The notes under the pieces were generated by a model. It made no database searches. It saw only the letters and a list, made by a program, of their open reading frames with translations, and had not been told where the DNA came from. Of a DNA stretch of 37,186 bases, positions 16,076 to 37,186 are shown in pieces. A program made the translations under genes and the position numbers. The stretch lies in NCBI GenBank assembly GCA_029248915.1, contig JAQWIK010000091.1, forward strand, positions 1-37,186, given 5' to 3'. Each line of letters starts with the position of its first letter. The first letter of the stretch is position 1. This DNA comes from Paracoccaceae bacterium. Its GTDB lineage: Bacteria; Pseudomonadota; Alphaproteobacteria; Rhodobacterales; Rhodobacteraceae.

Positions 16076-16228
16076 GTGAATAATTTTTATGATGAATTAT
16101 GAATCTTATTCAATTAAAAATGCGTAATTTTGTATTTTTCTGGGTTATCTAATCAAAAATTAAATAAGTTATTGATTAATTGTGTAAACGAAAGCACACT
16201 TTCCCAGTGTAATGACAAGGGGGAAAAT

Positions 16229-17221: not shown

Positions 17222-17229
17222 ATTTTATT

Positions 17230-17253: not shown

Positions 17254-17262
17254 TTCTATAAT

Positions 17263-20801: not shown

Positions 20802-22085
20802 ATGTTTGATTTTTTGGTTAAGAACGCTTCTTTGCCTGATGGCAAAGAAGGTATTGATGTAGCCTGTAAAAACGGCTTAATTACCTCTGTTGAAAAGAAT
20901 ATTTCTGGTGAAGCAAAAGAAACTATCTATGCAAATGGTTGGCTTTTAGCTCCGCCTTTTGTGGATCCGCATTTTCACATGGATGCAACGTTATCACTTG
21001 GCACACCAAGGTTAAATAAATCTGGAACATTGCTGGAAGGAATATCACTTTGGGGCGAATTAAAACCTGTCCAGACTATAGATGACATTATTGCAAGATC
21101 ATTAAAATATTGTGATCTAGCTGTTTCCATGGGTATTGGAGCAATAAGAAGCCATGTTGATACATGCGATGACGAATTAAAGGGCGTACAAGCTCTATTA
21201 GAGGTGAAAAAGCAAGTTAAAGACTATTTGGAACTTCAACTAGTGGCTTTTCCTCAAGATGGGCTTTATCGAGATCCTACAGCATTGGAAAATACCGTTC
21301 GCGCTTTGGATATGGGGGTAGATATTGTTGGAGGTATACCTCACTTCGAACGAACCATGTCGGAAGGTACACAATCAATTAAAGCTCTTTGTGAAATAGC
21401 TTCTGAAAGAGGGTTGCTGGTTGATATGCATTGCGATGAAACAGATGATCCTATGAGCCGTCATATAGAGACCCTGGCTTTTGAAACTCAGCGTCTTGGC
21501 TTGCAGGGTCGAGTAACAGGCTCTCATCTTACTTCAATGCATTCGATGGATAATTATTACGTGTCGAAATTAATACCATTGATTGCAGAAGCAGGGGTAC
21601 ATTCAATACCTAACCCTCTTATAAATATAATGCTTCAAGGAAGGCATGATACATATCCAAAACGTAGGGGGCAAACTAGAGTAAGAGAATTGCGCGATTC
21701 AGGTGTTTTGATCGGCTTTGGTTCAGATTGTGTTATGGATCCTTGGTACTCACTTGGTAACGCAGATATGCTTGATGTGGCCTTTATGGGCTTGCATGTC
21801 GGCCAGCTATCCAGTCGTGAGGATATGGCTTGGTGTTTTGACGCAATTACGTCTAATTCGGCCACTATAATGCACCTTGAAGATTATGGAATAAGTGTTG
21901 GATCCAAGGCAAATTTTAATTTGCTTCAAGCAAAAAATACTATTGAGGCGATTAGATTACGCGCTCATAGACTTGCTGTCGTAAGAAGTGGAAAATTGAT
22001 TGCAGGAAACACTCCACTAAATACTGAATTGCATATTCAAGGCCGTCCTCATTTTGTTGACCCTGCTTCCTATGCTCCCAATTAA
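20802..22085 (+). CDS. codA: Cytosine deaminase-like amidohydrolase (CodA family)
   Basis: Metal-dependent hydrolase expected to convert cytosine (or a related base) to uracil plus ammonia in the cytoplasm. The 427 residues match E. coli CodA in length, and its key residues have counterparts: His57 and His59 (DPHFHMD), Gln152 (AFPQDG), His210 and catalytic Glu213 (MHCDETDD), His242 (GSHLTSMHS) and Asp309 (GFGSDCVMDPWYSLG). CodA has FGHDD where this reads GFGSDC, so specificity may differ (isoguanine, creatinine or another ring amide are alternatives). AGGAG precedes the ATG. It is the last gene of the BMP-importer operon and feeds logically into the dihydropyrimidine route encoded downstream. 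Confidence 0.85.
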   Translation: MFDFLVKNASLPDGKEGIDVACKNGLITSVEKNISGEAKETIYANGWLLAPPFVDPHFHMDATLSLGTPRLNKSGTLLEGISLWGELKPVQTIDDIIARSLKYCDLAVSMGIGAIRSHVDTCDDELKGVQALLEVKKQVKDYLELQLVAFPQDGLYRDPTALENTVRALDMGVDIVGGIPHFERTMSEGTQSIKALCEIASERGLLVDMHCDETDDPMSRHIETLAFETQRLGLQGRVTGSHLTSMHSMDNYYVSKLIPLIAEAGVHSIPNPLINIMLQGRHDTYPKRRGQTRVRELRDSGVLIGFGSDCVMDPWYSLGNADMLDVAFMGLHVGQLSSREDMAWCFDAITSNSATIMHLEDYGISVGSKANFNLLQAKNTIEAIRLRAHRLAVVRSGKLIAGNTPLNTELHIQGRPHFVDPASYAPN

Positions 22086-23469: not shown

Positions 23470-23504
23470 TTGACCATATGGTAAAAAATTGACCATATGG
23501 TAAA
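23470..23504. promoter_or_regulatory. Two tandem RutR-like operators upstream of cofG
   Basis: TTGACCATATGGTAAA occurs at 23470-23485 and identically at 23489-23504, a 19-base period. The E. coli RutR consensus as I remember it is TTGACCAnnTGGTCAA; each copy matches 13 of the 14 specified bases (A for C in the right arm). The core ACCATATGGT is palindromic. The boxes end 56 bases before the cofG start. A possible promoter follows (TTGATG at 23512, CACAAT at 23534), but I would not rely on it. A rutR homologue lies in the same cluster, which supports the assignment. Confidence 0.75.
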
Positions 23505-23560
23505 AAAATCGTTGATGTATTTTATTTTTATGCCACAATAGTGTTTAGGGAGTGCGTCTG

Positions 23561-24685
23561 ATGGATATAAATTCCGATCCAACGTTCGCAAAGGCTGACA
23601 CGACAGCGCTACTATCAGCGGCTGCAGCAATTCGCGATCGATTTTGGGGTAATAATGTTACTTATTCGCGCAAAGTTTTTGTGCCGCTAACAAACATGTG
23701 CAGAGACACTTGTGGGTATTGCACTTTTGTAAAACATCCCTCTGATCCTCAAGCACGAATTATGACCCCAGATCAAGTTCTCCAAGTTGCCAAGAAAGGT
23801 ATTCAAAACGGTTGTAAAGAGTTGTTGTTTAGTCTGGGTGAAAAACCCGAATTAAGGTATGAAACAGCTAAAATAAGCCTTGCTAAATTGGGTTATGAAA
23901 GTATGACGCACTATCTTGCTGACATGTGTGCTCTTGTGCTTAAAGAAACGAATTTACTGCCCCATGTTAATGCTGGTACGCTGTCTGATGATGAGATCGA
24001 CATGCTAAAACCTGTTTCTGCTTCAATGGGAATGATGCTGGAAACGGTTAGCCGACGTTTGACTCGTAAAGGTATGCCACATCACAGTTGTCCGGATAAA
24101 ACTCCCGTGCAAAGATTGCGGACTTTGGAACGAGCTGGTTCCAAGAATGTGCCTTTTACAACTGGCTTATTGATTGGAATTGGAGAGACTTGGGAAGAAC
24201 GAATTGATGCATTAAAAGCGATAAATGCATCTCACCTTCGCTACCGCCACATCCAGGAAGTAATAATCCAAAACTTTCAACGTAAGCCTGATATTGCTAT
24301 GGCTCACCATCCGGAGCCTTATCTTGAAGATATGCTGCGTACTATTGCGGTTGCACGCATTATACTTGATCCCGAAATTAGTCTGCAAGCGCCTCCAAAT
24401 TTGCATCAGCGTCACATCTCCTATTTAAAAGCGGGGATAAATGATTGGGGTGGAATTAGCCCTGTTACAATCGATTTTATTAATCCGCAACATGAGTGGC
24501 CGGAAATACTTAAACTGTACGAAAGTTGTGCGAGTGTGGGCTTCAAATTATTAGAGCGCCTCACAGTGTATCCGCGTTTCATCAGTAAACGTAGTGAATA
24601 TTTGGACCCTGGATTGAGAAAACGTATTTTGTCAATGGCTGGAGATGATGGATTTGCGAGTGAACAAATATTGGAAGCTATTTAA
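23561..24685 (+). CDS. cofG: 7,8-didemethyl-8-hydroxy-5-deazariboflavin synthase subunit CofG
   Basis: Radical SAM enzyme that with CofH builds the deazaflavin (Fo) core of coenzyme F420 from tyrosine and the flavin precursor 5-amino-6-ribitylaminouracil. The 374 residues have the iron-sulfur motif at Cys47, Cys51 and Cys54 (MCRDTCGYCTF), then LLFSLGEKPELRY, LPHVNAGTL and MMLETVSRRL, all typical CofG segments. The ATG at 23561 follows AGGGAG at 8-base spacing; a GTG at 23552 is less likely. It is the first gene of a chain of overlapping F420 genes and sits behind the tandem RutR-like boxes. CofG and CofH are separate here, unlike the fused FbiC of actinobacteria. Confidence 0.96.
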   Translation: MDINSDPTFAKADTTALLSAAAAIRDRFWGNNVTYSRKVFVPLTNMCRDTCGYCTFVKHPSDPQARIMTPDQVLQVAKKGIQNGCKELLFSLGEKPELRYETAKISLAKLGYESMTHYLADMCALVLKETNLLPHVNAGTLSDDEIDMLKPVSASMGMMLETVSRRLTRKGMPHHSCPDKTPVQRLRTLERAGSKNVPFTTGLLIGIGETWEERIDALKAINASHLRYRHIQEVIIQNFQRKPDIAMAHHPEPYLEDMLRTIAVARIILDPEISLQAPPNLHQRHISYLKAGINDWGGISPVTIDFINPQHEWPEILKLYESCASVGFKLLERLTVYPRFISKRSEYLDPGLRKRILSMAGDDGFASEQILEAI

Positions 24686-25959
24686 TGAATAAAGTAAATC
24701 AGCAAGTTTCTAAGTTTATACCAGCAGAGTTGCAAAATTTGCTAGATTCTGCGAGTAGTTCAGTTTCTCAAATACTAAGCAACGCATTGTTTGGTAATGA
24801 AATTTCAGAGGATGATGGAACAGTACTTTTTAACTGTAGGGATAATGAAAAAGTTACAGATCGTTCTGCTATTTTTGCTGTCGCGGATATTTTGAGACGG
24901 CGTAGTAAAGGTGATTACGTAACTTTTGTGGTAAATAGAAATATTAATTTCACAAATATTTGTTATATGGGCTGTCGATTTTGTGGTTTTGCCAAACGCA
25001 AAGAAGAGGCAGGCTCTGAGTGGTTAGAACCTGCTCAGGTGGTTGAGAGAGCCCATCGGGCCTGGGATCGTGGCGGTACTGAAGTCTGCATCCAAGGCGG
25101 TCTGCATCCTAAAATGGAAGGTAGTTATTACCGTGAACTTATACTAGCAATAAAAGCATCGTTGCCAGATATGCATATCCATGCATTTTCTCCTTTTGAA
25201 GTATGGTATGGGTCAGTTAAATCTAAAATGTCTTATCGTGATTTTTTGAGTGATTTAAAAGATTGTGGTTTAGGATCTATGCCGGGAACAGCTGCAGAAA
25301 TACTCGATACTGAGGTTCGGCAAAAATTGACAAAAAATAAGCTTAGTGCTCAGTGCTGGGAGGAAATAATCCGAACGGCACATGATATAGGAATTCCAAG
25401 TACTGCTACAATTATGTATGGACATGTTGACGAGCCGAAGCACTGGTCTGCTCATATTGCACTTTTGCGGGAAATACAAAGAGATACTGGCGGATTTACT
25501 GAGCTTGTTCCCTTAAGTTTTGTGCATACGGATAGTCCCCTATTTTTGAATAATCCAAATTCAGTACGGCCCGGGCCGACTGATCACGAAGTTGACTTAA
25601 TGCACTCTGTTTCTCGGATTATGTTAAATGGTTTCATAGATAATATTCAGGTTAGTTGGACAAAGTTGGGTGCTGAACGTGCCCGTGATATGCTTTCCTT
25701 GGGTGTCAATGATCTTGGCGGAACTTTAATGAATGAAAGCATTTCTCGTTCAGCTGGATCTAAATATGGGCAAGAGATAACCGCATCTGAACTCTGTGAG
25801 ATTATTCGGTCAACAGGGCGCACACCTGTAAGGCGAAATACAGTTTACAAAACCATCGATATTTTCAAGGATCATGATCCGATTGAAATTGCTCCTTTAG
25901 TCGAACGTAACTCTGACCCTCTAAATTTCTTAACGATGTTTCCGGAGACTGTAAAATGA
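24685..25959 (+). CDS. cofH: Fo synthase subunit CofH (5-amino-6-(D-ribitylamino)uracil-L-tyrosine 4-hydroxyphenyl transferase)
   Basis: Second radical SAM half of Fo synthesis, joining the tyrosine-derived phenol unit to 5-amino-6-ribitylaminouracil. The 424 residues carry the cluster Cys93, Cys97 and Cys100 (NICYMGCRFCGFAKR), VCIQGGLHPKM, the segment GLGSMPGTAAEILD and TKLGAERARDMLSLGVND, typical of CofH/MqnC-like enzymes. The ATG overlaps the cofG stop (TAATG), and its own stop overlaps cofD (ATGA). The co-occurrence with cofG, cofD, cofC and cofE excludes the menaquinone enzyme MqnC. Confidence 0.96.
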   Translation: MNKVNQQVSKFIPAELQNLLDSASSSVSQILSNALFGNEISEDDGTVLFNCRDNEKVTDRSAIFAVADILRRRSKGDYVTFVVNRNINFTNICYMGCRFCGFAKRKEEAGSEWLEPAQVVERAHRAWDRGGTEVCIQGGLHPKMEGSYYRELILAIKASLPDMHIHAFSPFEVWYGSVKSKMSYRDFLSDLKDCGLGSMPGTAAEILDTEVRQKLTKNKLSAQCWEEIIRTAHDIGIPSTATIMYGHVDEPKHWSAHIALLREIQRDTGGFTELVPLSFVHTDSPLFLNNPNSVRPGPTDHEVDLMHSVSRIMLNGFIDNIQVSWTKLGAERARDMLSLGVNDLGGTLMNESISRSAGSKYGQEITASELCEIIRSTGRTPVRRNTVYKTIDIFKDHDPIEIAPLVERNSDPLNFLTMFPETVK

Positions 25960-26909
25960 CTCGCGTGACACTTTTAGCTGGTGGAGTTGGCGGCGCTAAA
26001 TTAGCCGAAGGGCTAGCTGAAATTCATGAAGTTAGTCTTACAGTGATTGGAAATGTGGGTGATGACGAAGAATTTCATGGACTTTGGGTATCCCCAGATA
26101 TCGACACAATGCTCTACACCCTTTCTGGCCGCGTAAATCGCGATCAAGGTTGGGGCCTTGCGGATGAAAGTAATCGAGCGCTTGAAATGTTAAATTGCTT
26201 GGGTACCAACACTTGGATGTTTCTTGGTGACCGTGATTTTGGTCTTCACATTTATCGTACAGAGCGATTGCGTAGTGGAGACCGGCCTTCCGATATTTTG
26301 GCAGATATAGCGTCTAAATTTGGTATCAATTCAAAAATAGTATTGCCGACTGACGCAAGGGTTCAAACACGTGTGCTCACTGATGAGGGATGGCTAAGCT
26401 TTCAAGAGTATTTTGTTCGAGAGCGCTGCCAGCCCGAAGTTTTAGAACTTAGCTATAATGGATTGGAGTCATCTAAAATAACACCAGAAGCAGAACAAGC
26501 GCTTATGGAGACTGAATTGATTGTAATAGCGCCTTCAAACCCTCTTGTAAGTATACTGCCAATTCTCAAAATACCGGGGTTTCATACAGTGTTGCAAAAA
26601 GCGACAGCTCCAATTTTGGCTGTTTCACCACTGATTGCTGGAAAAGCGTTAAAAGGTCCGGCGGACAGAATGCTTACAAGTTTAAATTATAGAGCAGATG
26701 CTGTGGGAGTTGCACATTTTTATGAAAATATAGCAGCCCATTTTCTGATGGACTCTAATGATGTTGAACTTAGCGATGAGGTATCTAAATTAGGTATGAA
26801 ACCTTATACTGCGGATATACTTATGCCTGATTTAGCAGGTAAAGTTCGTGTGGCGCATGAAATATTGGAAATTTATAAAACCATAAGTCGAGTGGGTTCA
26901 AAATGTTAA
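25956..26909 (+). CDS. cofD: Fo:2-phospho-L-lactate (or PEP/3-phosphoglycerate) transferase CofD/FbiA
   Basis: Transfers the nucleotide-activated phospho-acid made with CofC onto Fo, giving F420-0 or a variant. The 317 residues begin TRVTLLAGGVGGAKLAEGL, the hallmark loop (Gly9-Gly13), followed by NVGDDEEFHGLWVSPDIDT with the metal-binding acidic residues (Asp36, Asp37, Asp48, Asp50), and later IAPSNPLVSILPIL and SPLIAGKALKGPADRM. The start overlaps the cofH stop by 4 bases, and cofC begins inside its last codons. Which acid (2-phospholactate, PEP or 3-phosphoglycerate) is used cannot be told by eye. Confidence 0.96.
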   Translation: MTRVTLLAGGVGGAKLAEGLAEIHEVSLTVIGNVGDDEEFHGLWVSPDIDTMLYTLSGRVNRDQGWGLADESNRALEMLNCLGTNTWMFLGDRDFGLHIYRTERLRSGDRPSDILADIASKFGINSKIVLPTDARVQTRVLTDEGWLSFQEYFVRERCQPEVLELSYNGLESSKITPEAEQALMETELIVIAPSNPLVSILPILKIPGFHTVLQKATAPILAVSPLIAGKALKGPADRMLTSLNYRADAVGVAHFYENIAAHFLMDSNDVELSDEVSKLGMKPYTADILMPDLAGKVRVAHEILEIYKTISRVGSKC

Positions 26910-27520
26910 AGACCTTGATCGTCGTTCCAATGAAAACTCTGTCAGTTTCTAAAACTCGACTGGCAAGTTCACTTTCAAACAGCGCCAGAATTAGGTTAGT
27001 GCGTTTATTATATCAAAAAACCTTAAATTTTCTCATTCCGATCGCCGCAAAGGAACAAGTCGAAATTGCTGTTGTTACTAAATGTAAATATGCAAAAGAT
27101 ATCGCCAAGAAGTTGGGTGTCAGGATCATTCACGAACCAAGTAACCTGGGATTATCTGGTGCTATTCTTCATTCAGCAATCGCTGCAAAAGAGATGGGTT
27201 TTGAAAGGCTTTGTATTATTCCGGCAGATTTAGCTGCTCCATTAAAAAGTGATCTGACTGCTATGCTTAAAAGCGACTCAGCCGTAACCATTTGTCCGTC
27301 TTCTGATTTGGGTACGAACGCACTGGTGGTATCTCCACCAGATATTATTCCATTTCGATATGGTTCTCGATCATCTTTAACACATTTACAGGAAGCTAAG
27401 AAAAAAGGTATCAAAGCTCGCGTAATGAAACTAGATAGCTTCACCTTTGACATAGATACAAATAAATGTTTAGCCCGCGCTATGCGCGTAGTGCCAGATA
27501 TAGCAGGGGTTTGCGCATGA
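26903..27520 (+). CDS. cofC: Phospholactate/PEP/3-phosphoglycerate guanylyltransferase CofC/FbiD
   Basis: Nucleotidyltransferase of 205 residues that activates the phospho-acid with GTP for CofD. Seen: VPMKTLSVSKTRLA (residues 8-21; substrate/GTP loop), CIIPADLAAPLKSDL and GTNALVVSPP (137-146), the CofC signature. The more usual ADLP is ADLA here. The ATG lies 7 bases inside cofD, and its stop overlaps the cofE start. In the only proteobacterial case I know (Paraburkholderia) CofC prefers 3-phosphoglycerate; this one could do the same, but I cannot decide from sequence. Confidence 0.93.
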   Translation: MLKTLIVVPMKTLSVSKTRLASSLSNSARIRLVRLLYQKTLNFLIPIAAKEQVEIAVVTKCKYAKDIAKKLGVRIIHEPSNLGLSGAILHSAIAAKEMGFERLCIIPADLAAPLKSDLTAMLKSDSAVTICPSSDLGTNALVVSPPDIIPFRYGSRSSLTHLQEAKKKGIKARVMKLDSFTFDIDTNKCLARAMRVVPDIAGVCA

Positions 27521-28281
27521 TCAATGTTTCTTTGTCTACCATTCCCACCATACCAGATATTCGTCCTAAGGATGATTTAGCTTTGATTATAGGCAACGCA
27601 CTAGAATCCCATGGAGTTGAGAGTGGTGATATATTGTGTATCGCGCACAAAATTATTTCTAAGGCAGAGGGCGCCATTTTCAATCTAGAAGAAATTGAAC
27701 CTTCAACAGAAGCATTAGAGTATGCGGAAAAGTTAAATAAAAACCCTAAAAAAGTGGAAATAGTTTTAAGGCAATCAAAGCGAGTTGTTAGAGCTTTCAA
27801 GCGGCCGCAACAAAATGAAGGGACAATGATATGTGAACACCACCTCGGATTCATTTCGGCTAATGCGGGTGTGGACGAGTCGAATAGTGAGCCCAGTACG
27901 GTGATTACACTGCCGAATGATCCGGATACAAGTGCGAGAAAGCTTGGTCGGAAGCTCGAAGATCGGTTTGGTGTGCAACTTGGTATCGTTATTACAGATA
28001 CCTTCGGTCGCCCGTGGCGATTAGGTCAGGTAAATGTAGCGATAGGTCTTTTCAGAGTTCCTGCAATTACATCTGATATTGGTAAGAAAGATGCCTGGGG
28101 ACGTGAACTTTCTGTAACTGAACCTGCTTTATGCGATGAACTTGCAGCAGCCTCAGGTTTGGTGATTAAAAAGGCTGCTAAAACACCAATAGTCCTATTT
28201 CGAGGGTTGAAATGGGCTATGGAAGAGGAAACTAGCGCACTTAATATTTTGCGCGCAAATTCGGAGGATATGTTTCGATGA
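27517..28281 (+). CDS. cofE: Coenzyme F420:L-glutamate ligase CofE
   Basis: Adds gamma-linked glutamates to F420-0 using GTP. The 254 residues equal the archaeal CofE length and lack the C-terminal nitroreductase-like domain of mycobacterial FbiB. Motifs: [12 protein letters not shown] (44-55), ANAGVDESN (115-123), [12 protein letters not shown] (132-143) and [17 protein letters not shown] (161-177). The start is the ATG overlapping the cofC stop (ATGA at 27517); an upstream in-frame ATG at 27466 would add 17 residues inside cofC. Its own stop overlaps npdG. Without the FbiB domain, the step reducing dehydro-F420 is either unnecessary or done elsewhere. Confidence 0.95.
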
Positions 28282-28946
28282 CAATTGCCATACTTGGTGG
28301 AACCGGGCCTCAGGGTCGAGGATTAGCAAAGCGTTTTGCTGCTGCTGGGGTGCCCGTAGCTATTGGGTCCCGAAAATCAGAACATGCAAAGGAAGTTGCG
28401 GCTGAATTAGCTGCAGTTTTACCTGCAAACAGCGGATCAATCATAGGATATGATAACGCGAGTGCTGTAGCTGCTGCAGACGAAATGGTTATTTTAGCAG
28501 TTCCCTGGCCCGGGCATAACCCAACCTTAGAAACCCTCAAGAAGGACCTTTCTAACAAAATTCTTATTGATATTGTTGTGCCGCTCAAGGAAGGTGATCC
28601 AAAGAAAACTGAAATGCCTCCAGAGGGATCGGCCACTGAGGCGGCTCAGGCTCTTCTTGGGGACGAAATTCCAGTGATGGGAGCTCTGCACAACGTATCT
28701 GCTCACACCCTCAATGATATTGAAATACCTATCAACTGTGATGTTTTAGTTTGTGGAAATGGGCTAGAACCACGTAAAAAAGTTATGGAGCTGATAGAAA
28801 AAATTGGAGTGAAAACCTACAACGCGGGTGATGCGGAGGCTGCGCGATGTATAGAGGCTATTACGCCTATTTTAATAAGGATTAATATTTCCAAAGCTGT
28901 ACCTTTTAGCCATGCAGGTATCAAGATTTGGGCACCAGAAAACTAA
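28278..28946 (+). CDS. npdG: NADPH:F420 oxidoreductase (NpdG/Fno)
   Basis: Transfers hydride between NADPH and F420, here most likely making F420H2 for a reductase. The 222 residues begin with the dinucleotide loop [16 protein letters not shown]; the 2'-phosphate-binding GSRK lies at 30-33. [36 protein letters not shown] and [13 protein letters not shown] match the family. The ATG overlaps the cofE stop by 4 bases. The luciferase-like gene follows 17 bases on. Its presence in the biosynthetic operon means the cluster can both make and charge the cofactor. Confidence 0.94.
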
Positions 28947-28963
28947 ACATAAAGGAGATTACT

Positions 28964-29965
28964 ATGGAATTTGGAATTACTTTTAAAGGCTTCGTTGAGC
29001 CAGAACGTGCTCGCAAACTTGTTGCGCAAGCGGAAGAAGCTGGTTTCACATATTGTTGGTTTTACGATAGCCATATTCTTTGGCGTGAAAGCTTTCCTGC
29101 TATGGCAATGTGCATGGAGCATACAAAAAATATGAGGTTTGGTCCTTGTGTAACAAATCCAAATACTCGTGAATGGTCAGCCGCTGCATCTCTCTTTGGC
29201 TCTTTGGCACACCAGTCAGGAGGGCGATTTGATATAGGTGTCGGGCGCGGTGATAGTGCTGTTCGTGTTATGGGACGCAAACCAGCGCTTCTGAAAAAGA
29301 TGGATGAATTTATTGATGTAGTTAAAGGGCTCGTTAGGGGAGATGAATGTCATTACGGTGATGTACCCAATGCCATTAAGTTTCCATGGGCAACTGCCTA
29401 TGAATTGCCTGTTTGGGTAGCTGCTTATGGACCGAAAGCTCTGGATAGCGCCGGGCGCAAGGGTGACGGCCTTATATTACAAGTTGCGGAGCCAGCTATT
29501 TGTAAATGGCTCGGCGATCAAGCTATCGCAGCCGGGAAAGCTAATGGGCGCGATATGTCAAACTATAGAATAATGTCTGCAGCTCCTGCCTATTTTGGCG
29601 ATATTGAATCCTGTCGTGAAGCTACAAGGTGGTTTCCCGCAATGGTAGGAAATCACGTGGCGGATATCGTTGAAAAATATGGTACTGATCGCGAGGATAT
29701 ACCCAAGTCACTTACTGCTTATATTGAGGACCGAAAAGGTTATGATTACTCTAAACATGGTCAAAGCGATAATGCTTATTTAGACTTTATTACAGATGAC
29801 ATTATTGAAGGTTTTGCAGTTCTAGGTACCCCAGACGACCATATCGCTAAATTAAAAAAATTGGAGAGTGTGGGTGTTACTCAATTCAATATATATCTTG
29901 ATAATGGTGATGAAGAAAACATTATTTCTGAGTATGGCAAAACTGTAATTCCAGCCATGTCATAA
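28964..29965 (+). CDS. F420-dependent luciferase-like (LLM) oxidoreductase, CPS_4043-type; candidate uracil/dihydropyrimidine reductase
   Basis: TIM-barrel F420 enzyme of 333 residues related to methylene-tetrahydromethanopterin reductase (Mer). It starts MEFGITFKGFVEPERARKL behind a strong AAAGGAGA. GVGRGDSAVRVMGRKP (92-107) is the Mer-like cofactor/substrate loop, and LPVWVAAYGPKALDSAGRKG and VLGTPDDHIAKLKKL are further family marks. From memory it fits the CPS_4043 group (TIGR03842), whose proteobacterial members are often the only F420-dependent LLM in the genome and have no assigned reaction. It ends the cof operon and sits beside rutR, dihydropyrimidinase and carbamoyl amidohydrolase genes, so I infer F420H2-dependent reduction of uracil/thymine. 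FMN use as in RutA is the alternative. Confidence 0.88.
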   Translation: MEFGITFKGFVEPERARKLVAQAEEAGFTYCWFYDSHILWRESFPAMAMCMEHTKNMRFGPCVTNPNTREWSAAASLFGSLAHQSGGRFDIGVGRGDSAVRVMGRKPALLKKMDEFIDVVKGLVRGDECHYGDVPNAIKFPWATAYELPVWVAAYGPKALDSAGRKGDGLILQVAEPAICKWLGDQAIAAGKANGRDMSNYRIMSAAPAYFGDIESCREATRWFPAMVGNHVADIVEKYGTDREDIPKSLTAYIEDRKGYDYSKHGQSDNAYLDFITDDIIEGFAVLGTPDDHIAKLKKLESVGVTQFNIYLDNGDEENIISEYGKTVIPAMS

Positions 29966-30001
29966 GAAATCGGTCTTTTTAAGGTAACTATAAGATCACT
30001 A

Positions 30002-30035
30002 TGACCAGTGAATAACATATTGTATTTGCTGGTCA
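30002..30035. terminator. Inverted repeat between convergent LLM and rutR genes
   Basis: TGACCAG (30002-30008) pairs with CTGGTCA (30029-30035); after a two-base mismatch, AATA/TATT extend the stem, leaving an 8-base loop. It lies in the 167-base gap between two converging genes, where a shared terminator is expected, but no U-run follows on either strand. The arms resemble RutR half-sites, but the spacing (20 instead of 2) is wrong for an operator. Confidence 0.35.
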
Positions 30036-30132
30036 AAATTTAGGCTTACTGATGAGTTATTATAGTTTTGATAATGTTTTTGCTAATTTTTTAGTGAAGC
30101 ATAGACTGAATAGTTTCTTAAAATTTTTCCAA

Positions 30133-30786
30133 TTAGCATGGTTCAGCAGAATGATTTTGGTTACTTGGCAAAGAAAGCATTCGCAAGAGAAGATTGGTCA
30201 AATATTCTTCAGCATCCTGAAATAATTCGTCTTCGTTTTTGTCTAATATAGCTTTTACTTGAACATCGAAATCAGCATAGTGTTGGGTCATAGCCCAAAT
30301 TGAAAAAAATAGGTGGTATCCACTTACATTAGCCAACTTTCCTTCACTGACCCAATGATCAATCACGGCCACCTTTTCATCTAAGGTTTGTCTTAGGCTA
30401 GTAGCTAAAATATTTTGCATCAACGGAGCTCCATGCAAAATTTCATTAGCGAATAGTTTGCTCTCTTTTGGTTTTTGTTTAGACATCTTTAATTTAGCTT
30501 TCATATAGCCTAATAATTCTTCTATTGGCTCCCCTTCTTTTGAAATTTCGTGAAGCGGGGCAACCCACTCGTCTAGTAGCCCATTTAGGACTTCAAAATA
30601 TATTTGATCTTTGCTCGAGTAGTAATAGAGGATGTTCGGCTTTGTTAATCCGCAAGCCGTGGCAATCTTATCTAGGGTAGCACTTCGAAGGCCGTATTCT
30701 GAGAAGACTTCAAGAGCGGCCTTTTGAATTTTGCCGCGTTTTTCTCGTTGAATTCTGGAAAGATTTTTTTCTGTAACTGCGTTCAT
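30133..30786 (-). CDS. rutR: TetR family regulator, RutR-like (pyrimidine-responsive)
   Basis: 217-residue TetR repressor. The N-terminal helix-turn-helix reads SATLDKIATACGLTKPNILY, with YYYSSKDQIYFEVLN following. The ligand domain carries segments close to E. coli RutR: LDEWVAPLHEI, SKLFANEILHGAPLM, DEKVAVIDHWVSEGKL and IWAMTQHYADF (the last near the uracil pocket). RutR in E. coli binds uracil or thymine and then leaves DNA, linking pyrimidine level to the rut genes. Here it converges on the F420 operon and diverges from the carbamoyl-amidohydrolase gene. RutR-type boxes occur before both flanking operons, so both are its probable targets. Confidence 0.9.
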   Translation of the reverse strand: MNAVTEKNLSRIQREKRGKIQKAALEVFSEYGLRSATLDKIATACGLTKPNILYYYSSKDQIYFEVLNGLLDEWVAPLHEISKEGEPIEELLGYMKAKLKMSKQKPKESKLFANEILHGAPLMQNILATSLRQTLDEKVAVIDHWVSEGKLANVSGYHLFFSIWAMTQHYADFDVQVKAILDKNEDELFQDAEEYLTNLLLRMLSLPSNQNHSAEPC

Positions 30787-30912
30787 TGTTTTTTTACTCT
30801 TAATCTTCAGTTCTTTTTTAGAATCTTTGAGTCACTAAAAAGATACAAAGATATTATTAATAGGCATTATTTAAGTAACTCTAGAACAAGAATAAAAAAA
30901 ATTTAAGAAAAA

Positions 30913-30928
30913 TTGTCCATTTGGTCAA
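30913..30928. promoter_or_regulatory. RutR-like operator between rutR and the amidohydrolase gene
   Basis: TTGTCCATTTGGTCAA matches 13 of 14 specified bases of the remembered consensus TTGACCAnnTGGTCAA. A further half-site, TTGACC, follows at 30936-30941. The box is about 85 bases before the amidohydrolase start and about 127 bases before rutR on the other strand, in the 226-base divergent gap, so it could control either or both. The rest of the gap is AT-rich without other recognisable elements. Confidence 0.72.
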
Positions 30929-31012
30929 AAATTTATTGACCGCTATCGCTTATTTGTTCCAAAGTTGTGAGGAACCAGTTTATGGCAAATTTTTAAAGTG
31001 AGGAATTTTGAC

Positions 31013-32257
31013 GTGACAAGCGTAAAAAATTTAAGGATTGATCCAGATCGATTATGGGACAGCTTAATGGAAATGGCCAAAATTGGGCCAGGAATTGCTG
31101 GTGGAAATAATCGACAAACATTAACGGATGAAGATGCAGAAGGCCGCGCTCTTTTCCAGAGTTGGTGCGAAAAAGCTGGTATGGATATGGGCGTCGATAC
31201 AATGGGCAATATGTTTGCAACTAGAGCCGGTACTGATCCTGATGCTTTACCTGTTTATGTTGGCTCACATCTTGATACTCAGCCGACTGGGGGAAAGTAT
31301 GATGGGGTTTTGGGTGTTCTGGGGGGCTTGGAGCTCGTTAGGACACTTAATGACCTTGATGTTTCTACAAAACATCCAATTGTGGTAGTAAATTGGACAA
31401 ATGAAGAAGGAACAAGGTACGCCCCGGCAATGCTTGCGTCTGGTGTATTTGCGGGTAGGCATGATCAAGACTGGGCATATGATCGAACTGACAGTGATGG
31501 AAAAAAATTTGGTGACGAACTTAAGCGAATTGGGTGGGTTGGTAATGAAAAGGTTGGCTCAAGAAAAATGCATGCAATGTTCGAGTTGCATATTGAGCAA
31601 GGGCCTATACTGGAGGCCGAAAACAAAGACATTGGTGTCGTAACGCATGGGCAAGGTTTGCGCTGGATAGAATGCAAAATTTCTGGAAAAGAGAGCCATA
31701 CTGGATCAACCCCAATGCGTATGCGGAAAAATGCGGGTAGGGGTTTAGCCCTAATTACTGAACTTGTTCACGAAATAGCTATGAAGCACCAACCAAATGC
31801 CGTTGGCGCAATAGGACATATTGATGTTTACCCCAATTCTAGAAATATCATTCCTGGTCAAATTGTGTGTACAGTCGATATGCGAACCCATTTGATAGAC
31901 ATACTGGAAGATATGGTTTCTGAATTTGAGGAAAGAGCTCCAAAATTATGTAGCGATATTGGTGTTGAGTTCGAATGTTCAATCGTTGGCCAATTTAATC
32001 CGCCAGCTTTCGATGAAGACTGTGTTTCAGCAGTTAGAGAGGCCGCAGTTGAACTCGGCTACAGTCATATGAATATTGTTTCAGGAGCTGGGCATGATGC
32101 TTGTTGGATCAATGATTTGGCCCCAACTGCCATGATCATGTGCCCCTGTGAAGATGGCTTGAGTCATAACGAGGCTGAAGAGATCTCAAAAGAATGGGCG
32201 CAGGCTGGTACCGATGTACTTCTTCACGCAGTTTTAAATACTGCAATTATTCAATAG
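31013..32257 (+). CDS. Zn-dependent M20-type amidohydrolase (N-carbamoyl-beta-alanine amidohydrolase / hydantoinase-carbamoylase family)
   Basis: Expected to split N-carbamoyl-beta-alanine (or the thymine-derived analogue) into beta-alanine, CO2 and ammonia, the last step of reductive pyrimidine breakdown. The start is GTG 31013 (MTSVKNLRIDPDRLW), 8 bases after GAGGA; another GTG at 30998 lacks a ribosome site. The 414 residues show the dinuclear metal ligands His86 (GSHLDTQPTGG), Asp97 (KYDGVLG), the Glu131/Glu132 pair (NWTNEEGTR), His193 (ELHIEQGP) and a His in LSHNEAEE near the end, and the lid segment GAGHDACWIND. Allantoate and N-carbamoyl-amino-acid hydrolases share this family; dihydropyrimidinase 23 bases downstream and a RutR box upstream favour the pyrimidine role (PydC-like). 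Confidence 0.88.
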   Translation: MTSVKNLRIDPDRLWDSLMEMAKIGPGIAGGNNRQTLTDEDAEGRALFQSWCEKAGMDMGVDTMGNMFATRAGTDPDALPVYVGSHLDTQPTGGKYDGVLGVLGGLELVRTLNDLDVSTKHPIVVVNWTNEEGTRYAPAMLASGVFAGRHDQDWAYDRTDSDGKKFGDELKRIGWVGNEKVGSRKMHAMFELHIEQGPILEAENKDIGVVTHGQGLRWIECKISGKESHTGSTPMRMRKNAGRGLALITELVHEIAMKHQPNAVGAIGHIDVYPNSRNIIPGQIVCTVDMRTHLIDILEDMVSEFEERAPKLCSDIGVEFECSIVGQFNPPAFDEDCVSAVREAAVELGYSHMNIVSGAGHDACWINDLAPTAMIMCPCEDGLSHNEAEEISKEWAQAGTDVLLHAVLNTAIIQ

Positions 32258-32280
32258 TCATAATTCTTAGGAGTTAAAAA

Positions 32281-33735
32281 ATGTCGAAGGTAATTAAAAA
32301 TGGAACAGTTGTAACTCATGATTTGACTTACAAAGCTGATATTTTAATTGAGGGTTCGAAAATAACAGAGATCGGAAAAAATCTTTCTGGCGATAGTGAG
32401 ATCGACGCTACAGATTGTTTTGTTATGCCAGGTGGAATTGACCCACATACCCATTTGGAAATGCCTTTTATGGGTACATATTCAAGCGATGATTTTGAAA
32501 GTGGCACTCGAGCTGGCCTAGCTGGTGGAACTACGATGGTGGTAGATTTCGCTCTACCAAACCCGGGCGAGAGTTTGCTCGATGCTTTAAAACGCTGGGA
32601 TAATAAATCTACTAGAGCCAATTGTGATTATTCTTTTCATATGGCTGTAACCTGGTGGGGTGAACAAGTTTTTAATGATATGAAAACGGTAATTGAGGAA
32701 CGTGGCATCAGTACTTTTAAACACTTCCTGGCCTACAAAGGTGCTTTAATGGTGAATGATGATGAATTGTATTCATCTTTTTCCCGCCTGGCGGAGCTTG
32801 GGGGAATCGCTATGGTTCACGCTGAGAACGGCGATGTCGTAGCAGAGCTGAGCGCAAAGCTTTTGGCTGAGGGTAACAATGGCCCAGAAGCTCATGCATT
32901 TTCGCGACCGAGTCAGGTCGAAGGTGAGGCAACAAATCGTGCGATCATGATCGCTGATATGGCTGGAGTTCCTCTTTATGTTGTTCATACATCTTGTGAA
33001 GAATCCCACGAAGCAATTCGTCGCGCTAGGCAGGCGGGGAAGCGGGTTTGGGGCGAACCGTTGATACAGCATTTAACTCTTGATGAAAGTGAGTACTTTA
33101 ATAAAGACTGGGATCATGCTGCTCGTCGGGTAATGTCACCGCCTTTTAGAAATAAAATGCACCAGGATAGTTTATGGGCTGGATTACAATCAGGATCCTT
33201 GAGCGTTGTTGCTACAGACCACTGTGCCTTTACCACCGAACAAAAACGTTTCGGTGCAGGTGATTTTACAAAAATTCCAAATGGCACAGGTGGTCTGGAA
33301 GATAGATTACCTATGTTGTGGACCCACGGTGTTAGGACGGGTCGACTTACTATGAATGAATTTGTAGCTGTTACTTCCACAAATATAGCAAAAATATTAA
33401 ATTGTTATCCTAAAAAAGGAGCAATATTGGTTGGGGCAGATGCAGATTTGATTGTCTGGGATCCTGAAAAGTCTAAAACGATTAAAGCATCGTCTCAGCA
33501 ATCAGCAATTGACTACAATGTGTTTGAAGGTCACAAAGTAACAGGCTTGCCTAGATACACCTTAACCAGAGGTTACGTTGCAATTTCTGATGGTGAAATT
33601 AATACGAAAGAGGGGCACGGTGAATTTGTTGCACGCAAAGGTAACACACCAATAAACCAAGCTCTTTCAAATTGGAAAGACCTTACATCTCCAACTCCAG
33701 TGAATCGCACTGGGATACCTGCTACAGGTGTTTAA
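32281..33735 (+). CDS. hydA: Dihydropyrimidinase (D-hydantoinase family)
   Basis: Opens the ring of dihydrouracil or dihydrothymine to the N-carbamoyl-beta-amino acid. The 484 residues are full length and all zinc ligands are present: His56 and His58 (GGIDPHTHLEMPF), the carboxylated Lys153 (HFLAYKGALMV), His180 (AMVHAENGD), His236 (VVHTSCEESH) and Asp313 (ATDHCAF). NGTGGLEDRLP is the substrate-binding segment. AGGAG lies 8 bases before the ATG. It is located between the carbamoyl amidohydrolase and the ABC importer genes. Its substrate needs a prior reduction of uracil, for which no PreT/PreA or PydA gene is present in this window. Confidence 0.95.
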   Translation: MSKVIKNGTVVTHDLTYKADILIEGSKITEIGKNLSGDSEIDATDCFVMPGGIDPHTHLEMPFMGTYSSDDFESGTRAGLAGGTTMVVDFALPNPGESLLDALKRWDNKSTRANCDYSFHMAVTWWGEQVFNDMKTVIEERGISTFKHFLAYKGALMVNDDELYSSFSRLAELGGIAMVHAENGDVVAELSAKLLAEGNNGPEAHAFSRPSQVEGEATNRAIMIADMAGVPLYVVHTSCEESHEAIRRARQAGKRVWGEPLIQHLTLDESEYFNKDWDHAARRVMSPPFRNKMHQDSLWAGLQSGSLSVVATDHCAFTTEQKRFGAGDFTKIPNGTGGLEDRLPMLWTHGVRTGRLTMNEFVAVTSTNIAKILNCYPKKGAILVGADADLIVWDPEKSKTIKASSQQSAIDYNVFEGHKVTGLPRYTLTRGYVAISDGEINTKEGHGEFVARKGNTPINQALSNWKDLTSPTPVNRTGIPATGV

Positions 33736-33751
33736 GACTTAGGGGCAACTA

Positions 33752-34534
33752 GTGACAGACGAGACAGTGATTTCTGCGCAGTCGTTGGATTTAACCTTCC
33801 AAACCAATGACGGGCCCGTTCATGCTTTGAAAGATGTAAACCTTAATATAACAAAAGGTGACTTTATAAGTTTTATTGGGCCATCTGGATGCGGTAAAAC
33901 AACACTTTTAAGAGTTATGGCGGATCTAGATCAGCCAACAGATGGGACTATCACGATTAATGGTGTTTCTCCAAAAGCTGCCCGAGAAAGTCGGGCATAT
34001 GGATATGTTTTTCAATCAGCGGGATTATATCCGTGGCGCACAATAGGAAAAAATATACGCTTACCATTAGAAATAATGGGGATAAGTAAGTCTGAGCAAA
34101 AAGAGAGAGTTGAAAAAGTTCTAAAGTTAGTTGAGTTAGAAGATTTTGAAAAGAAATTTCCATGGCAGCTTTCTGGTGGAATGCAACAAAGAGCATCCAT
34201 CGCAAGGGCTCTAGCATTTGATGCTGATATTTTATTAATGGATGAACCTTTTGGTGCTTTGGATGAAATAGTAAGAGACTATTTAAACGAACAGTTGCTG
34301 AAACTTTGGCATTCTACAGAAAAAACAATTTGTTTTGTAACTCACTCGATTCCAGAGGCGGTATACCTATCCACTAAAATTGTTGTTATGTCTCCTCGTC
34401 CTGGACGAATTATTGATATAATTGAAAGTGATTTGCCTGACAAACGACCCTTGGAGATAAGAGATACAAAAGAGTTTATTGATATTGCCCAAAGAGTAAG
34501 AGAAGGTTTAAGGGCGGGGCATAGTTATGAATAA
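33752..34534 (+). CDS. NitT/TauT-type ABC transporter ATPase (predicted pyrimidine importer)
   Basis: 260-residue ATPase with Walker A GPSGCGKT (43-50), signature LSGGMQQRASIARAL, Walker B ILLMDEPFGALDE and the switch His in CFVTHSIPEA, of the SsuB/TauB/ThiZ branch. The start is GTG, preceded by AGGGG. It lies 16 bases after the dihydropyrimidinase stop, and its end overlaps the next permease by 8 bases. In alphaproteobacteria such ThiXYZ-like importers often stand beside hydA and are thought to bring in pyrimidines (general knowledge, from memory); sequence alone gives only the class. Confidence 0.92.
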   Translation: MTDETVISAQSLDLTFQTNDGPVHALKDVNLNITKGDFISFIGPSGCGKTTLLRVMADLDQPTDGTITINGVSPKAARESRAYGYVFQSAGLYPWRTIGKNIRLPLEIMGISKSEQKERVEKVLKLVELEDFEKKFPWQLSGGMQQRASIARALAFDADILLMDEPFGALDEIVRDYLNEQLLKLWHSTEKTICFVTHSIPEAVYLSTKIVVMSPRPGRIIDIIESDLPDKRPLEIRDTKEFIDIAQRVREGLRAGHSYE

Positions 34535-35393
34535 CGCGTTCCTTCCAGTAGTAACAATTTCTACTTTCATAGTGTTAATTTGGTATAGTTTCTCAATAGT
34601 ATTGAATTCGTCATGGGCCTTAGACAAGGCAGAAAGGAACGACCAGAAACTTAGTTTTTCTGAACTTGTTCATGATACCTGGTCTCAGAAGAAGCCTAAA
34701 TTGCCGACCCCTCATCAGGTGGGCTATGAAATGTGGAAGACGATTTTTGATAAAAAAGTTACGTCTAAACGATCGCTTGTTTACCATGGTTGGATAACGT
34801 TATCGGCAACATTGGCTGGCTTTATGCTGGGGACGGTTTTAGGTATTTTATTAGCTTTAGCAATTGTACATGACAAAGCGACAAATTTAAGTGTGATGCC
34901 ATGGATTATTACGAGTCAAACAATACCAATACTGGCGTTAGCTCCTATGATCATTGTCGTATTGAGTTCAATTGGTTTTACCGGGCTATTGCCTAAGGCC
35001 GTTATTTCAATGTATCTTTCCTTTTTTCCAATTGTAGTGGGAATGGTTAAGGGACTTAGGTCACCTGATTTACTTGAAATTGATCAAATGAAAACTTGGT
35101 CGGCCTCGCAGTTTCAGATTTTGATTAAATTAAGGCTCCCGAAGTCAATTCCATTTCTATTTACCTCGCTGAAGCTCGGGATGGCGGCATCGCTTGTCGG
35201 AGCCATTGTTGGAGAGCTACCATCTGGTGCAATCGCAGGTTTGGGAGCTAGAATGCTTTCAGGAAGTTATTATGGACAAACAATCCAAATCTGGAGTGCA
35301 TTATTTACTGCAGCTATTCTTGCAGCTTCATTGGTAGGCTTGATTAGTATAATTCAGGCCTTTGTTTTTAAAAGAATGATGATTGTTCAATGA
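34527..35393 (+). CDS. NitT/TauT-type ABC transporter permease
   Basis: Inner-membrane subunit, 288 residues, BPD_transp_1 family. An N-terminal helix (VVTISTFIVLIWYSFSIVL) and a hydrophilic stretch rich in Lys and Gln precede the membrane core; the loop before the core is longer than in SsuC. The ATPase-coupling loop is MKTWSASQFQILIKLRLPKS, and GAIVGELPSGAIAGLGARM is family-typical. It overlaps the ATPase gene upstream and shares ATGA with the second permease. Together they form a heterodimeric channel, unlike the homodimeric SsuC/TauC systems but like ThiX/RibX-type pairs. Confidence 0.91.
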   Translation: MNNAFLPVVTISTFIVLIWYSFSIVLNSSWALDKAERNDQKLSFSELVHDTWSQKKPKLPTPHQVGYEMWKTIFDKKVTSKRSLVYHGWITLSATLAGFMLGTVLGILLALAIVHDKATNLSVMPWIITSQTIPILALAPMIIVVLSSIGFTGLLPKAVISMYLSFFPIVVGMVKGLRSPDLLEIDQMKTWSASQFQILIKLRLPKSIPFLFTSLKLGMAASLVGAIVGELPSGAIAGLGARMLSGSYYGQTIQIWSALFTAAILAASLVGLISIIQAFVFKRMMIVQ

Positions 35394-36241
35394 ATAGTTT
35401 TTTCTTTTTTTCTATCATTTTTTGGATAGCCGCTTGGATAATAAATATTTTTATTGCTCAATCAACTCTCGCTAGAACTAAATTGGTCTTGCCTCCTATC
35501 TTATTCGGAGTATCCTTGCTACTGGTGTGGGAGGCTTCAATCAGTGCCTTTGATGTGAGTCCAGTAATTCTCCCAGCCCCGTCTTTAGTTTTTATAAAAT
35601 TAATTAGCAGCGTTTCAATTCTTTGGGTTGATTTTGTACAGACTTTCGTCAAAGGAGCTTTAAGTGGTTATATCTTTGGTTGTTCAGCAGCTTTTGGTGT
35701 TGCTCTTTTAGTAGATCGATTTAAGTTCCTGGAACGTGGATTATTGCCGATTGGAACTTTTATGGCAGCTCTTCCCATTATTGGTACGGCACCGATATTG
35801 GTAAGGTGGTTTGGTTTTGGCTGGGAGTCAAAATCTGCTGTAGTTACAGTGATGGTATTTTTCCCTATGCTGATAAATACTATACAAGGTCTTCAAATGT
35901 CTGATAAAATTCATCGTGATTTAATGCAGACATATAATGCAACATCATTTCAAACGTTGGTAAAATTGAGATTAGCTGCTGCAATGCCTTTTATTTTTAA
36001 TGGACTTAAAATCTGTTCTACCCTAGCATTAATCGGAGCAATTGTCGCTGAATTTTTTGGATCGCCGATTAAAGGGATTGGATTTAGGATTTCAACGGAA
36101 GTTGGCAGGTTTGCGTTAGACATGGTCTGGGCAGAGATAACAATAGCGGCAATAACAGGGTCGTTGTTTTACGGTGGGATTGTTTTGTTGGAAAAGGTAT
36201 TAACCTTCTGGCACCCGTCGCAAAGAGGAAGATCAGAATAA
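35390..36241 (+). CDS. NitT/TauT-type ABC transporter permease, second subunit
   Basis: 283 residues with several membrane helices. PVILPAPSLVFIKLISS is the classical segment before the core in this family, and YNATSFQTLVKLRLAAAMP the ATPase-coupling loop. GAIVAEFFGSPIKGIGFRI is the conserved C-terminal half motif. Its ATG overlaps the stop of the first permease by 4 bases, and the binding-protein gene follows 24 bases on with its own strong ribosome site. It is clearly a paralogue of its neighbour. Confidence 0.91.
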   Translation: MNSFFFFSIIFWIAAWIINIFIAQSTLARTKLVLPPILFGVSLLLVWEASISAFDVSPVILPAPSLVFIKLISSVSILWVDFVQTFVKGALSGYIFGCSAAFGVALLVDRFKFLERGLLPIGTFMAALPIIGTAPILVRWFGFGWESKSAVVTVMVFFPMLINTIQGLQMSDKIHRDLMQTYNATSFQTLVKLRLAAAMPFIFNGLKICSTLALIGAIVAEFFGSPIKGIGFRISTEVGRFALDMVWAEITIAAITGSLFYGGIVLLEKVLTFWHPSQRGRSE

Positions 36242-36265: not shown

Positions 36266-37186
36266 ATGAAAAATTTATTTAAATTCGCCCTTGGTGGCGT
36301 TGTTATGTTGTTGGCTTCAATGGCCACAGCGTCAGATGATGTAACAATTCAGCTAAAGTGGGTTACACAAACGCAGTTTGCTGGATATTATGTGGCACAA
36401 GACAAAGGATTTTATAAAGAGGAAGGTCTAAATGTTACCATCAAACCAGGTGGACCAGATATTGGGCCAATGCAAGTCCTTGCTGGAGGTGGCGCGGATG
36501 TGGCAGTCGATTGGATGCCATCTGCTTTAGCTGCAAGAGAAAAGGGACTTTCAGCAGTTAATATTGCTCAACCTTTTAAAAGTTCCGGAATGATGCTTAC
36601 TTGTAGAAAAGATCGCGGAGTAAACTCTGTCTCCGACCTCAAAGGTAAGAACCTGGGTGTTTGGTTTTTTGGTAATGAGTATCCATTCTTGAGTTGGATG
36701 AATAAATTAGGTCTTTCAACAGACGGTGGCTCTGACGGAGTTACTGTTTTTAAGCAAGGTTGGGATATCCTCCCTTTAACCCAAGGTGATGCAACATGTG
36801 TTTCGACGATGGCATATAACGAGTATTGGCAGGTTCTTGCTGAAGGCTTAAAACCATCCGAATTAACAGTGTTTAAATATGAGGCAGAAGGCGTTGCGAC
36901 ACTTGAAGATGGTCTTTATATTTTAGAAGAAAACTTAAAAAACGCGGCTTTCAAAGACAAGATGGTCAGGTTTGTAAGAGCGTCAATGAAAGGGTGGAAA
37001 TATGCCGAACAAAACCCAGCTGAGGCTGCTGAAATCGTTGTTGATAACGACGACTCTGGAGCTCAGACAGTTGAGCATAACACAACCCAGATGGGTGAAA
37101 TAATTAAGTTAACTGCAGGCAGCAATGGAGCCCTAGATCCGGCAGATTATCAACGTACAGTTGACAGTTTAATGACTGGTGGCTCA
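36266..37186 (+). CDS. NMT1/THI5-like ABC transporter substrate-binding protein, 3' end cut by the window
   Basis: Periplasmic receptor; 307 codons are visible and open at the edge, so probably 10-40 residues are missing. TAAAGGAGAA precedes the ATG. The signal peptide is MKNLFKFALGGVVMLLASMA, cleaved near ATA. VTIQLKWVTQTQFAGYYVAQ and DKGFYKEEGLNVTIKPGGP are the THI5/NMT1 hallmark. Relatives bind thiamine precursors (HMP, formylaminopyrimidine), riboflavin or pyrimidine bases. With hydA, the carbamoyl amidohydrolase and rutR in the cluster, uracil/thymine or a dihydropyrimidine is the best guess for the ligand. Confidence 0.92.
   Translation, partial: MKNLFKFALGGVVMLLASMATASDDVTIQLKWVTQTQFAGYYVAQDKGFYKEEGLNVTIKPGGPDIGPMQVLAGGGADVAVDWMPSALAAREKGLSAVNIAQPFKSSGMMLTCRKDRGVNSVSDLKGKNLGVWFFGNEYPFLSWMNKLGLSTDGGSDGVTVFKQGWDILPLTQGDATCVSTMAYNEYWQVLAEGLKPSELTVFKYEAEGVATLEDGLYILEENLKNAAFKDKMVRFVRASMKGWKYAEQNPAEAAEIVVDNDDSGAQTVEHNTTQMGEIIKLTAGSNGALDPADYQRTVDSLMTGGS

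Follow-up and report, generated by a model that had tools for sequence, protein, structure and literature searches.

The 37,186-nt stretch of DNA analyzed here (the window) is the whole of contig JAQWIK010000091.1 (C91) in the assembly of a Paracoccaceae bacterium, GCA_029248915.1, which totals 2.02 Mb over 113 contigs and is 90% complete. From 23552 to 29965, all on the plus strand, it encodes the F420 biosynthesis proteins CofG, CofH, CofD, CofC and CofE, the NADPH:F420 oxidoreductase NpdG, and one luciferase-like (LLM) enzyme of family TIGR03842. A convergent rutR-like gene comes next, and divergent from that gene runs a second group, hyuC, hydA and an ABC importer, of the kind used in the reductive degradation of pyrimidines. 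What the LLM enzyme may be doing beside those genes is the question taken up here.

The genes of the F420 group all exceed the cut-offs of curated families: cofG, FO synthase subunit 1 (23552..24685; TIGR03550, 459 bits, cut-off 213); cofH, FO synthase subunit 2 (24685..25959; TIGR03551, 478 bits, cut-off 374); cofD, 2-phospho-L-lactate transferase (25956..26909; TIGR01819, 263 bits, cut-off 257); cofC, guanylyltransferase (26903..27520; TIGR03552, 138 bits, cut-off 105); cofE, F420-0:glutamate ligase (27466..28281; TIGR01916, 260 bits, cut-off 181); npdG (28278..28946; TIGR01915, 199 bits, cut-off 150); and the LLM enzyme itself (28964..29965; TIGR03842, 498.7 bits, cut-off 295.45), whose start is set at the ATG at 28964, the listed open frame beginning at a TTG at 28928. 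The same is true of the two hydrolases on the plus strand, an M20 carbamoyl amidohydrolase (hyuC/pydC, 30998..32257; PRK09290.1-3, 678 bits, cut-off 452), proposed to be a beta-ureidopropionase, and a dihydropyrimidinase (hydA/pydB, 32281..33735; TIGR02033, 585 bits, cut-off 393; solved dihydropyrimidinase 3dc8, E 1.4e-271). The importer follows on that strand, with an ATPase (33752..34534), two permeases (34527..35393, PF00528, and 35390..36241) and an NMT1/THI5-type substrate-binding protein (36266..37186, PF09084) that is cut by the contig end. A preliminary description of the window had named these genes, and their identities hold, with one qualification: the supposed rutR homologue, a TetR regulator on the minus strand (30133..30786; PF00440 and the YcdC-like C-domain PF08362), reaches only 216 bits against TIGR03613, under the RutR equivalog cut-off of 368, and is best called RutR-like.

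Three sites resembling RutR operators lie within the same region. Two stand in tandem before cofG, the first, TTGACCATATGGTAAA, at 23470..23485 and its copy at 23489..23504, and the third, TTGTCCATTTGGTCAA, lies between the rutR-like gene and hyuC at 30913..30928. Each differs at one position from TTGACCAnnTGGTCAA, which I take to be the operator consensus of the E. coli RutR literature; against that consensus the upstream region of E. coli carA has one mismatch and the gap between rutA and rutR three. The tandem pair occupies -82 to -48 relative to the called start of cofG and the third site -85 to -70 relative to hyuC. The region singled out by the preliminary description begins at 23470, precisely the first base of the tandem pair. 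Three matches at one mismatch are found in the window where 0.01 is expected, and none of 100 shuffles reaches three. They are also the only matches with at most one mismatch in the 2.02 Mb genome, in which a reversed control pattern gives one.

Similar sites recur before cofG at related loci. Of 53 CofG upstream regions, 7 hold a site with at most one mismatch and 14 a site with at most two (7/45 and 13/45 by hand count when 8 genome repeats are set aside), while the frequencies are 2/987 and 6/987 in a background of upstream regions that includes spurious open reading frames. At four loci (L061, L069, L075 and L076, whose genomes are probably interrelated) the site before cofG is perfect or off by one while HyuC and HydA are encoded on a different stretch, and the shared control therefore does not simply follow from the genes being neighbors.

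The reductive pathway needs an enzyme that converts uracil to dihydrouracil, and the preliminary description had noted that none is encoded here. A look through the whole genome for preA, pydA and rutA bears this out, and the genomic condition that the preliminary description had set for its own refutation turned out in its favor. NF006183, the family of PreA, has no match, and the sole protein with PF01180 is a quinone-dependent PyrD. RutA is absent from the PF00296 proteins, of which there are only two, the TIGR03842 enzyme and one SsuD-like protein that is closest to flavin mononucleotide (FMN)H2-dependent alkanesulfonate monooxygenase, below the cut-off of that family. The absence of PreTA/PydA and RutA from the host is thus strong but not absolute, as up to 10% of the genome may be missing from the assembly. 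The further suggestion, that F420 is synthesized solely for this pathway, has partial support: in a search that covered the luciferase family, the only other member looks like an FMN-dependent sulfonate monooxygenase.

Where the missing enzyme would be expected, the F420 genes are found. In four genomes of the same family (G022, G154, G252 and G331) the order is PreT and PreA, then RutR reversed, then carbamoylase, dihydropyrimidinase and ABC importer, and this order (PreT, PreA, reversed RutR, HyuC, HydA, ATPase, permeases, NMT1 protein) is the usual one around preA, seen in 15 of 16 PreA loci from genomes that have the LLM enzyme (e.g. Leisingera, Shimia), some cut by the end of the stretch or contig. 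It varies in other alphaproteobacterial families, and 1 of 20 loci of the class (L242) lacks both HydA and HyuC. The window keeps the usual order and orientation, with cofGHDCE-npdG-LLM standing where PreT-PreA stands, as the preliminary description had supposed.

Twelve preTA-linked HydA copies match that of the window at 85-88% identity (88% for the copy of G252), against 60-83% for LLM-linked copies other than that of the close relative L041, with gammaproteobacterial copies lower. In a tree of 82 HydA proteins, a quick tree with support from the Shimodaira-Hasegawa-like approximate likelihood ratio test (SH-aLRT) only and with 24 of its 79 inner branches open, LLM-linked and preTA-linked copies interleave and 8 changes between the two linkages are needed; the window's HydA groups with the preTA-linked one of G252 (support 93, branch unstarred). 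On this tree, therefore, a single hydrolase has worked with two unrelated reductases, with several switches between them.

A contig scan gave 332 LLM relatives, of which the best 80 were kept for the counts of loci and genomes. NpdG accompanies the enzyme at 68 of the 80 loci, at least three cof genes at 54, and HydA or HyuC at 34; at least one of HydA, HyuC, NMT1 and RutR is present at 51. Counts of cof linkage are lower bounds, since the picking of open reading frames drops some real genes, such as cofG in L253. By comparison, 20 loci of other LLM proteins from the same class, in stretches of 11.5-19.3 kb, include none with HydA or HyuC, and three of them adjoin cof genes. HydA itself (TIGR02033 over cut-off) is found in all 51 LLM genomes searched, the host included, versus 113 of 385 genomes of the class, and 58 of those 113 have PreA.

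At six loci (L048 and L050-L054) the LLM gene directly precedes hyuC, followed by hydA and importer genes, and no cof gene lies in the locus, of which L048 shows only 1.8 kb upstream. CofG is encoded elsewhere in all six genomes; in the wider search it was found in 12 of 13 genomes, the one miss being G414, whose LLM locus lies against a contig edge, CofH being its first gene. By this arrangement the LLM enzyme is associated with the pathway in its own right and not just through the cofactor genes.

The relation to PreA is less simple. PreA is absent from 64 of the 80 LLM genomes, and the 16 that have it all fall among the 50 better assemblies, chosen first; none is found in the remaining 30, many of which are incomplete. 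Sub-cut-off matches in G387, G388 and G389 (124-142 bits) are PyrD-type dihydroorotate dehydrogenases and were rejected as PreA. Among the 34 PreA-free genomes of the 50, 18 have the HydA-HyuC pair linked to the LLM or cof genes, and in 14 the pair lies elsewhere, without preTA, so that 32 of 34 have it. Six genomes of the class with an LLM enzyme over cut-off show the same tendency (PreA 0/6, HydA 5/6). The hydrolase pair is nearly always present where PreA is not, but strict mutual exclusion of PreA and the LLM enzyme must be rejected, both being present in 16 of 80 genomes.

Most of those 16 have more than one set of hydrolases. In 13 a second HyuC-HydA set exists besides the one adjoining preTA. 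Beside 12 of these second sets an NCS1 permease is seen instead of the ABC importer, and 10 have a class III aminotransferase. The second set shares its stretch with F420 genes in 4 cases; in the remaining 9, less than 4 kb separates its HydA from a contig end. As for the other three genomes, the single HydA of G386 adjoins preTA; the only close hydrolase set of G401 lies away from its preTA; and in G404 the stretch ended at the second HydA, leaving HyuC outside the view.

The enzyme's predicted structure is of the F420 type. An AlphaFold2 model (predicted local distance difference test, pLDDT, 91.4; predicted template-modelling score, pTM, 0.91) finds its nearest solved folds among F420-dependent enzymes, namely Mer (Z 36), Adf (Z 32) and FGD (Z 30-31), with RutA at Z 25-26. 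The comparison with RutA indicates membership in the same superfamily only, and no uracil-pocket residues are proposed from it. Mer, the F420-dependent methylene-tetrahydromethanopterin reductase, is the nearest solved relative by sequence as well (E 9e-36). By alignment only, Cys62-Val63 corresponds to the cis-peptide Gly61-Val62 of Mer, in the loop that forms the cofactor backstop of F420 enzymes, and Asp97 to Asp96. The catalytic Glu6 of Mer, where the E6Q exchange leaves 0.4% of kcat (PMC11094777), gives way to Thr6 in the window's enzyme and to Cys or Ala in relatives; an alignment (A1) of six LLM proteins shows these three residues at the position. With an F420-type fold and the glutamate replaced, the enzyme resembles a hydride transferase that uses F420 and acts on a substrate different from that of Mer. 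The Mer pocket already faces a pyrimidine-type ring, which by analogy is suggestive of the substrate, not proof. That the enzyme binds F420 I infer from the presence of cof genes and npdG in one operon.

I propose that the TIGR03842 LLM enzyme takes the place of PreTA/PydA in the reductive pathway, acting as a dihydropyrimidine dehydrogenase that uses F420H2, and would put the probability of this at about 0.85. NpdG would reduce F420 using NADPH, and the LLM enzyme would reduce uracil and/or thymine to the 5,6-dihydropyrimidine by passing a hydride from C5 of F420H2 to C6 of the base. The dihydropyrimidinase would then open the ring to N-carbamoyl-beta-alanine, which the M20 carbamoylase would split into beta-alanine, ammonia and CO2. 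The base would come in through the flanking importers and from a cytosine deaminase, and the RutR-like repressor, bound to the operators before cofG and hyuC, would let pyrimidines induce cofactor, reductase and hydrolases together. The substrate, the direction of the reaction, the hydride chemistry and the occupancy of the operators I infer from what was computed: the gene identities, an assembly with no other first enzyme, the replacement of preT-preA, the linkage across genomes, the shared operator sites and the F420-type fold.

Several observations weigh against the proposal. HydA or HyuC is present at only 26 of the 42 loci with about 10 kb on both sides. The LLM enzyme is evidently not a simple substitute for PreA everywhere, given the 16 genomes with both. 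Two of the 34 PreA-free genomes fall short of the expected pair, one having HydA linked and HyuC outside the stretch seen and the other (G425) having no close HydA/HyuC pair. G196 and G289 have homologues, 53-54% identical and over the TIGR03842 cut-off, that lack pyd genes as neighbors. No operator was seen within 350 bp upstream of the six operons in which the LLM gene comes first, and the regulator, as noted, scores below the RutR cut-off. Finally, the carbamoylase is equally close to an N-carbamoyl-L-amino-acid hydrolase (8apz, E 1.1e-191) and to an N-carbamoyl-beta-alanine amidohydrolase (8c46, E 2.5e-190), its nearest solved relatives by sequence.

The enzyme might instead reduce a related heterocycle, not uracil itself, perhaps thymine alone or a different ring that can be opened by HydA and HyuC, in a parallel pathway with a substrate of its own. 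HydA enzymes accept several rings, and the separate hydrolase sets in 13 of 16 LLM genomes with PreA, all but one with their own NCS1 permease, suggest a separate duty. I regard this as unlikely, because HydA of the LLM clusters forms no clade of its own but interleaves with preTA-linked HydA, because importer, RutR, HyuC and HydA of the window match the preTA cluster gene by gene, and because four fifths of LLM genomes (64/80) have no PreA. Another reading is that the F420 genes and the LLM gene adjoin pyrimidine genes by chance, F420 serving some other process. There are indeed such clusters with no pyrimidine genes nearby: G258, 98% complete, has a cof-npdG-LLM operon and neither HydA nor PreA; Paracoccus alcaliphilus has cof-LLM without adjoining pyd genes; and 29 of the 80 loci, many of them on short contigs, lack all of HydA, HyuC, NMT1 and RutR. 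Chance would have to account, however, for LLM genes placed directly before hyuC with no cof genes present, for the 0 of 20 control loci, for operators before cofG even where the clusters lie apart, and for HydA in 51 of 51 LLM genomes, and it would leave the host with no first enzyme at all. It is very improbable. Least credible of all is a methylene-tetrahydropterin reductase of the Mer type, feeding one-carbon metabolism, in spite of Mer being the nearest solved relative by sequence and fold: the enzyme scores far under both Mer cut-offs (127 of 276 and 118 of 349) and lacks Glu6, and on these grounds that candidate was ruled out.

Related clusters are seen in other bacteria. On a complete Leisingera plasmid (L253), NCS1-hydA-hydrolase-aminotransferase-pntB-pntA stands beside cofGHDCE-npdG-LLM-TetR, and the transhydrogenase pair pntA/pntB lies between the hydrolases and cofG in both Leisingera and Limimaricola (L253, 5254-8271; L086, L088, L110, L197, L203). 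The pntB-pntA pair is likely the supply of NADPH for NpdG, in keeping with a reaction that consumes NADPH and runs in the reducing direction. A similar Leisingera-like cluster occurs in a record titled Nocardioides marinus (L089), possibly a mislabelled genome. In Paracoccus denitrificans (L106, L212), which has no PreA over cut-off, cof-npdG-LLM adjoins genes for an NCS1 permease and for HyuC and HydA. Gammaproteobacteria (Marinomonas, Vibrio) have HydA, NCS1, HyuC, RutR and cof-npdG-LLM with a semialdehyde dehydrogenase nearby, and Vibrio an aminotransferase also. Among 398 genomes of the phylum, TIGR03842 at E <= 1e-80 picks out one besides the host (G571), in which HydA (cut by the stretch), NCS1, HyuC, RutR, cof, NpdG and LLM stand in a row and there is no PreA. 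A Caballeronia plasmid (L256, 9001-12991) carries an LLM fragment (residues 205-333 matched), then a Zn hydrolase, alanine dehydrogenase and pntB, which suggests a betaproteobacterial version, possibly decayed. The actinobacterial view comes from one record, Streptomyces sp. BHT-5-2. A gap of 11 nt separates its LLM gene (TIGR03842, 590 bits; product 42% identical) from the dihydropyrimidinase gene upstream of it (TIGR02033, 554 bits), and an acetylornithine/4-aminobutyrate-type aminotransferase is encoded nearby.

Taken this far, the TIGR03842 enzymes of the clade would be a second, unrelated dihydropyrimidine dehydrogenase extending from Proteobacteria to Actinobacteria, pyrimidine reduction would be the main reason many Proteobacteria make F420, and its synthesis would be induced by pyrimidines through RutR. 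I consider this broader claim probable, with less confidence than the role proposed for the enzyme itself. If the role proposed for the enzyme is right, a TIGR03842 clade gains a function, and F420H2 joins NAD(P)H and ferredoxin as a donor for pyrimidine reduction.

The closest known system is of course the PreTA/PydA pathway, whose RutR-like regulator, carbamoylase, dihydropyrimidinase and importer are homologous and in the same order in genomes of the same family, but whose first enzyme is PreT-PreA rather than an F420-type LLM enzyme with a cofactor operon. RutA shares the LLM superfamily and acts on uracil. It is, however, oxidative and dependent on FMN and O2, and it is missing from the host. 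Mer shares the nearest fold and, by alignment, the positions of its cis-peptide and of Asp96, but not the catalytic Glu6. A change of electron donor within a Pyd cluster has a precedent in the ferredoxin-dependent PydAc of Clostridium chromiireducens (PMC7332683), which is nevertheless a PydA homologue with an FMN domain like that of dihydroorotate dehydrogenase, while the LLM enzyme comes from another superfamily. Nearer in spirit is a bioinformatic proposal for uric-acid clusters of Chloroflexota, in which a putative F420-dependent LLM enzyme would replace a PydA-like reductase beside a HyuA-type hydrolase (PMC12507026). That enzyme would reduce a purine, yanthine, not a pyrimidine, and the passages of PMC12507026 drawn on here mention neither an F420 operon nor RutR control. 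An earlier statement of an F420-dependent pyrimidine reductase was not found in the open-access literature, subscription journals being mostly outside the coverage.

F420 has been detected in P. denitrificans, at a trace level, and in other Proteobacteria, and, according to a 2021 review, no experimental study of an F420H2-dependent reductase existed for bacteria other than Actinobacteria, so that the role of F420 in them calls for laboratory work (PMC8498797). The cluster described here would give proteobacterial F420 a specific job, with enzyme, substrate, regulator and culturable hosts named. The trace level in P. denitrificans could reflect an uninduced state.

The arrangement in the window is also seen in an independently assembled genome, AG-422-J09 (L041, from Rhodobacteraceae, the closest relative with a name; presumably a single-cell genome, as AG- names are), in which the order is kept from an EamA transporter gene to the first permease and the LLM enzyme is 97-98% identical; misassembly or a binning artefact is ruled out by this. 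A search of viral contigs gave 17 pattern matches, none of which was confirmed. Upstream of cofG, the EamA gene lies on the same strand as two associated plus-strand features, a cytosine deaminase (20802..22085; PRK07572, 739 bits, cut-off 438), a possible supplier of uracil, and a BMP-type ABC importer (16130..20792) composed of a binding protein, an ATPase and two permeases, possibly for nucleoside uptake. The best NCBIfam matches of the importer are families of putative B6 ABC importers (BMP-type), all below cut-off. A similar importer directly precedes cofG at locus L047. Farther upstream is a 2-oxoglutarate-Fe(II) oxygenase (9823-10767), and homologues of this oxygenase (38% identical) and of the importer (25-38% identical) adjoin the preTA cluster of G096 (L233); both may, by this neighborhood, have a role in the use of pyrimidines or nucleosides. 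An open reading frame of 97 aa lies on the minus strand at 23067-23360, between EamA and the cofG operators.

A few irregular loci deserve mention. In Roseibium (L078, L102, L104) an LLM enzyme 72% identical to that of the window stands beside reversed and reordered F420 genes, apart from the pyd cluster; the CofG frame of G391 there is 832 aa long. L038, from G196, has two adjacent LLM copies beside NpdG, 52-53% identical to the window's enzyme, one of them partial. Poseidonocella (G385, L043) has the LLM enzyme plus three RutA matches over cut-off (C14:30770-48959).

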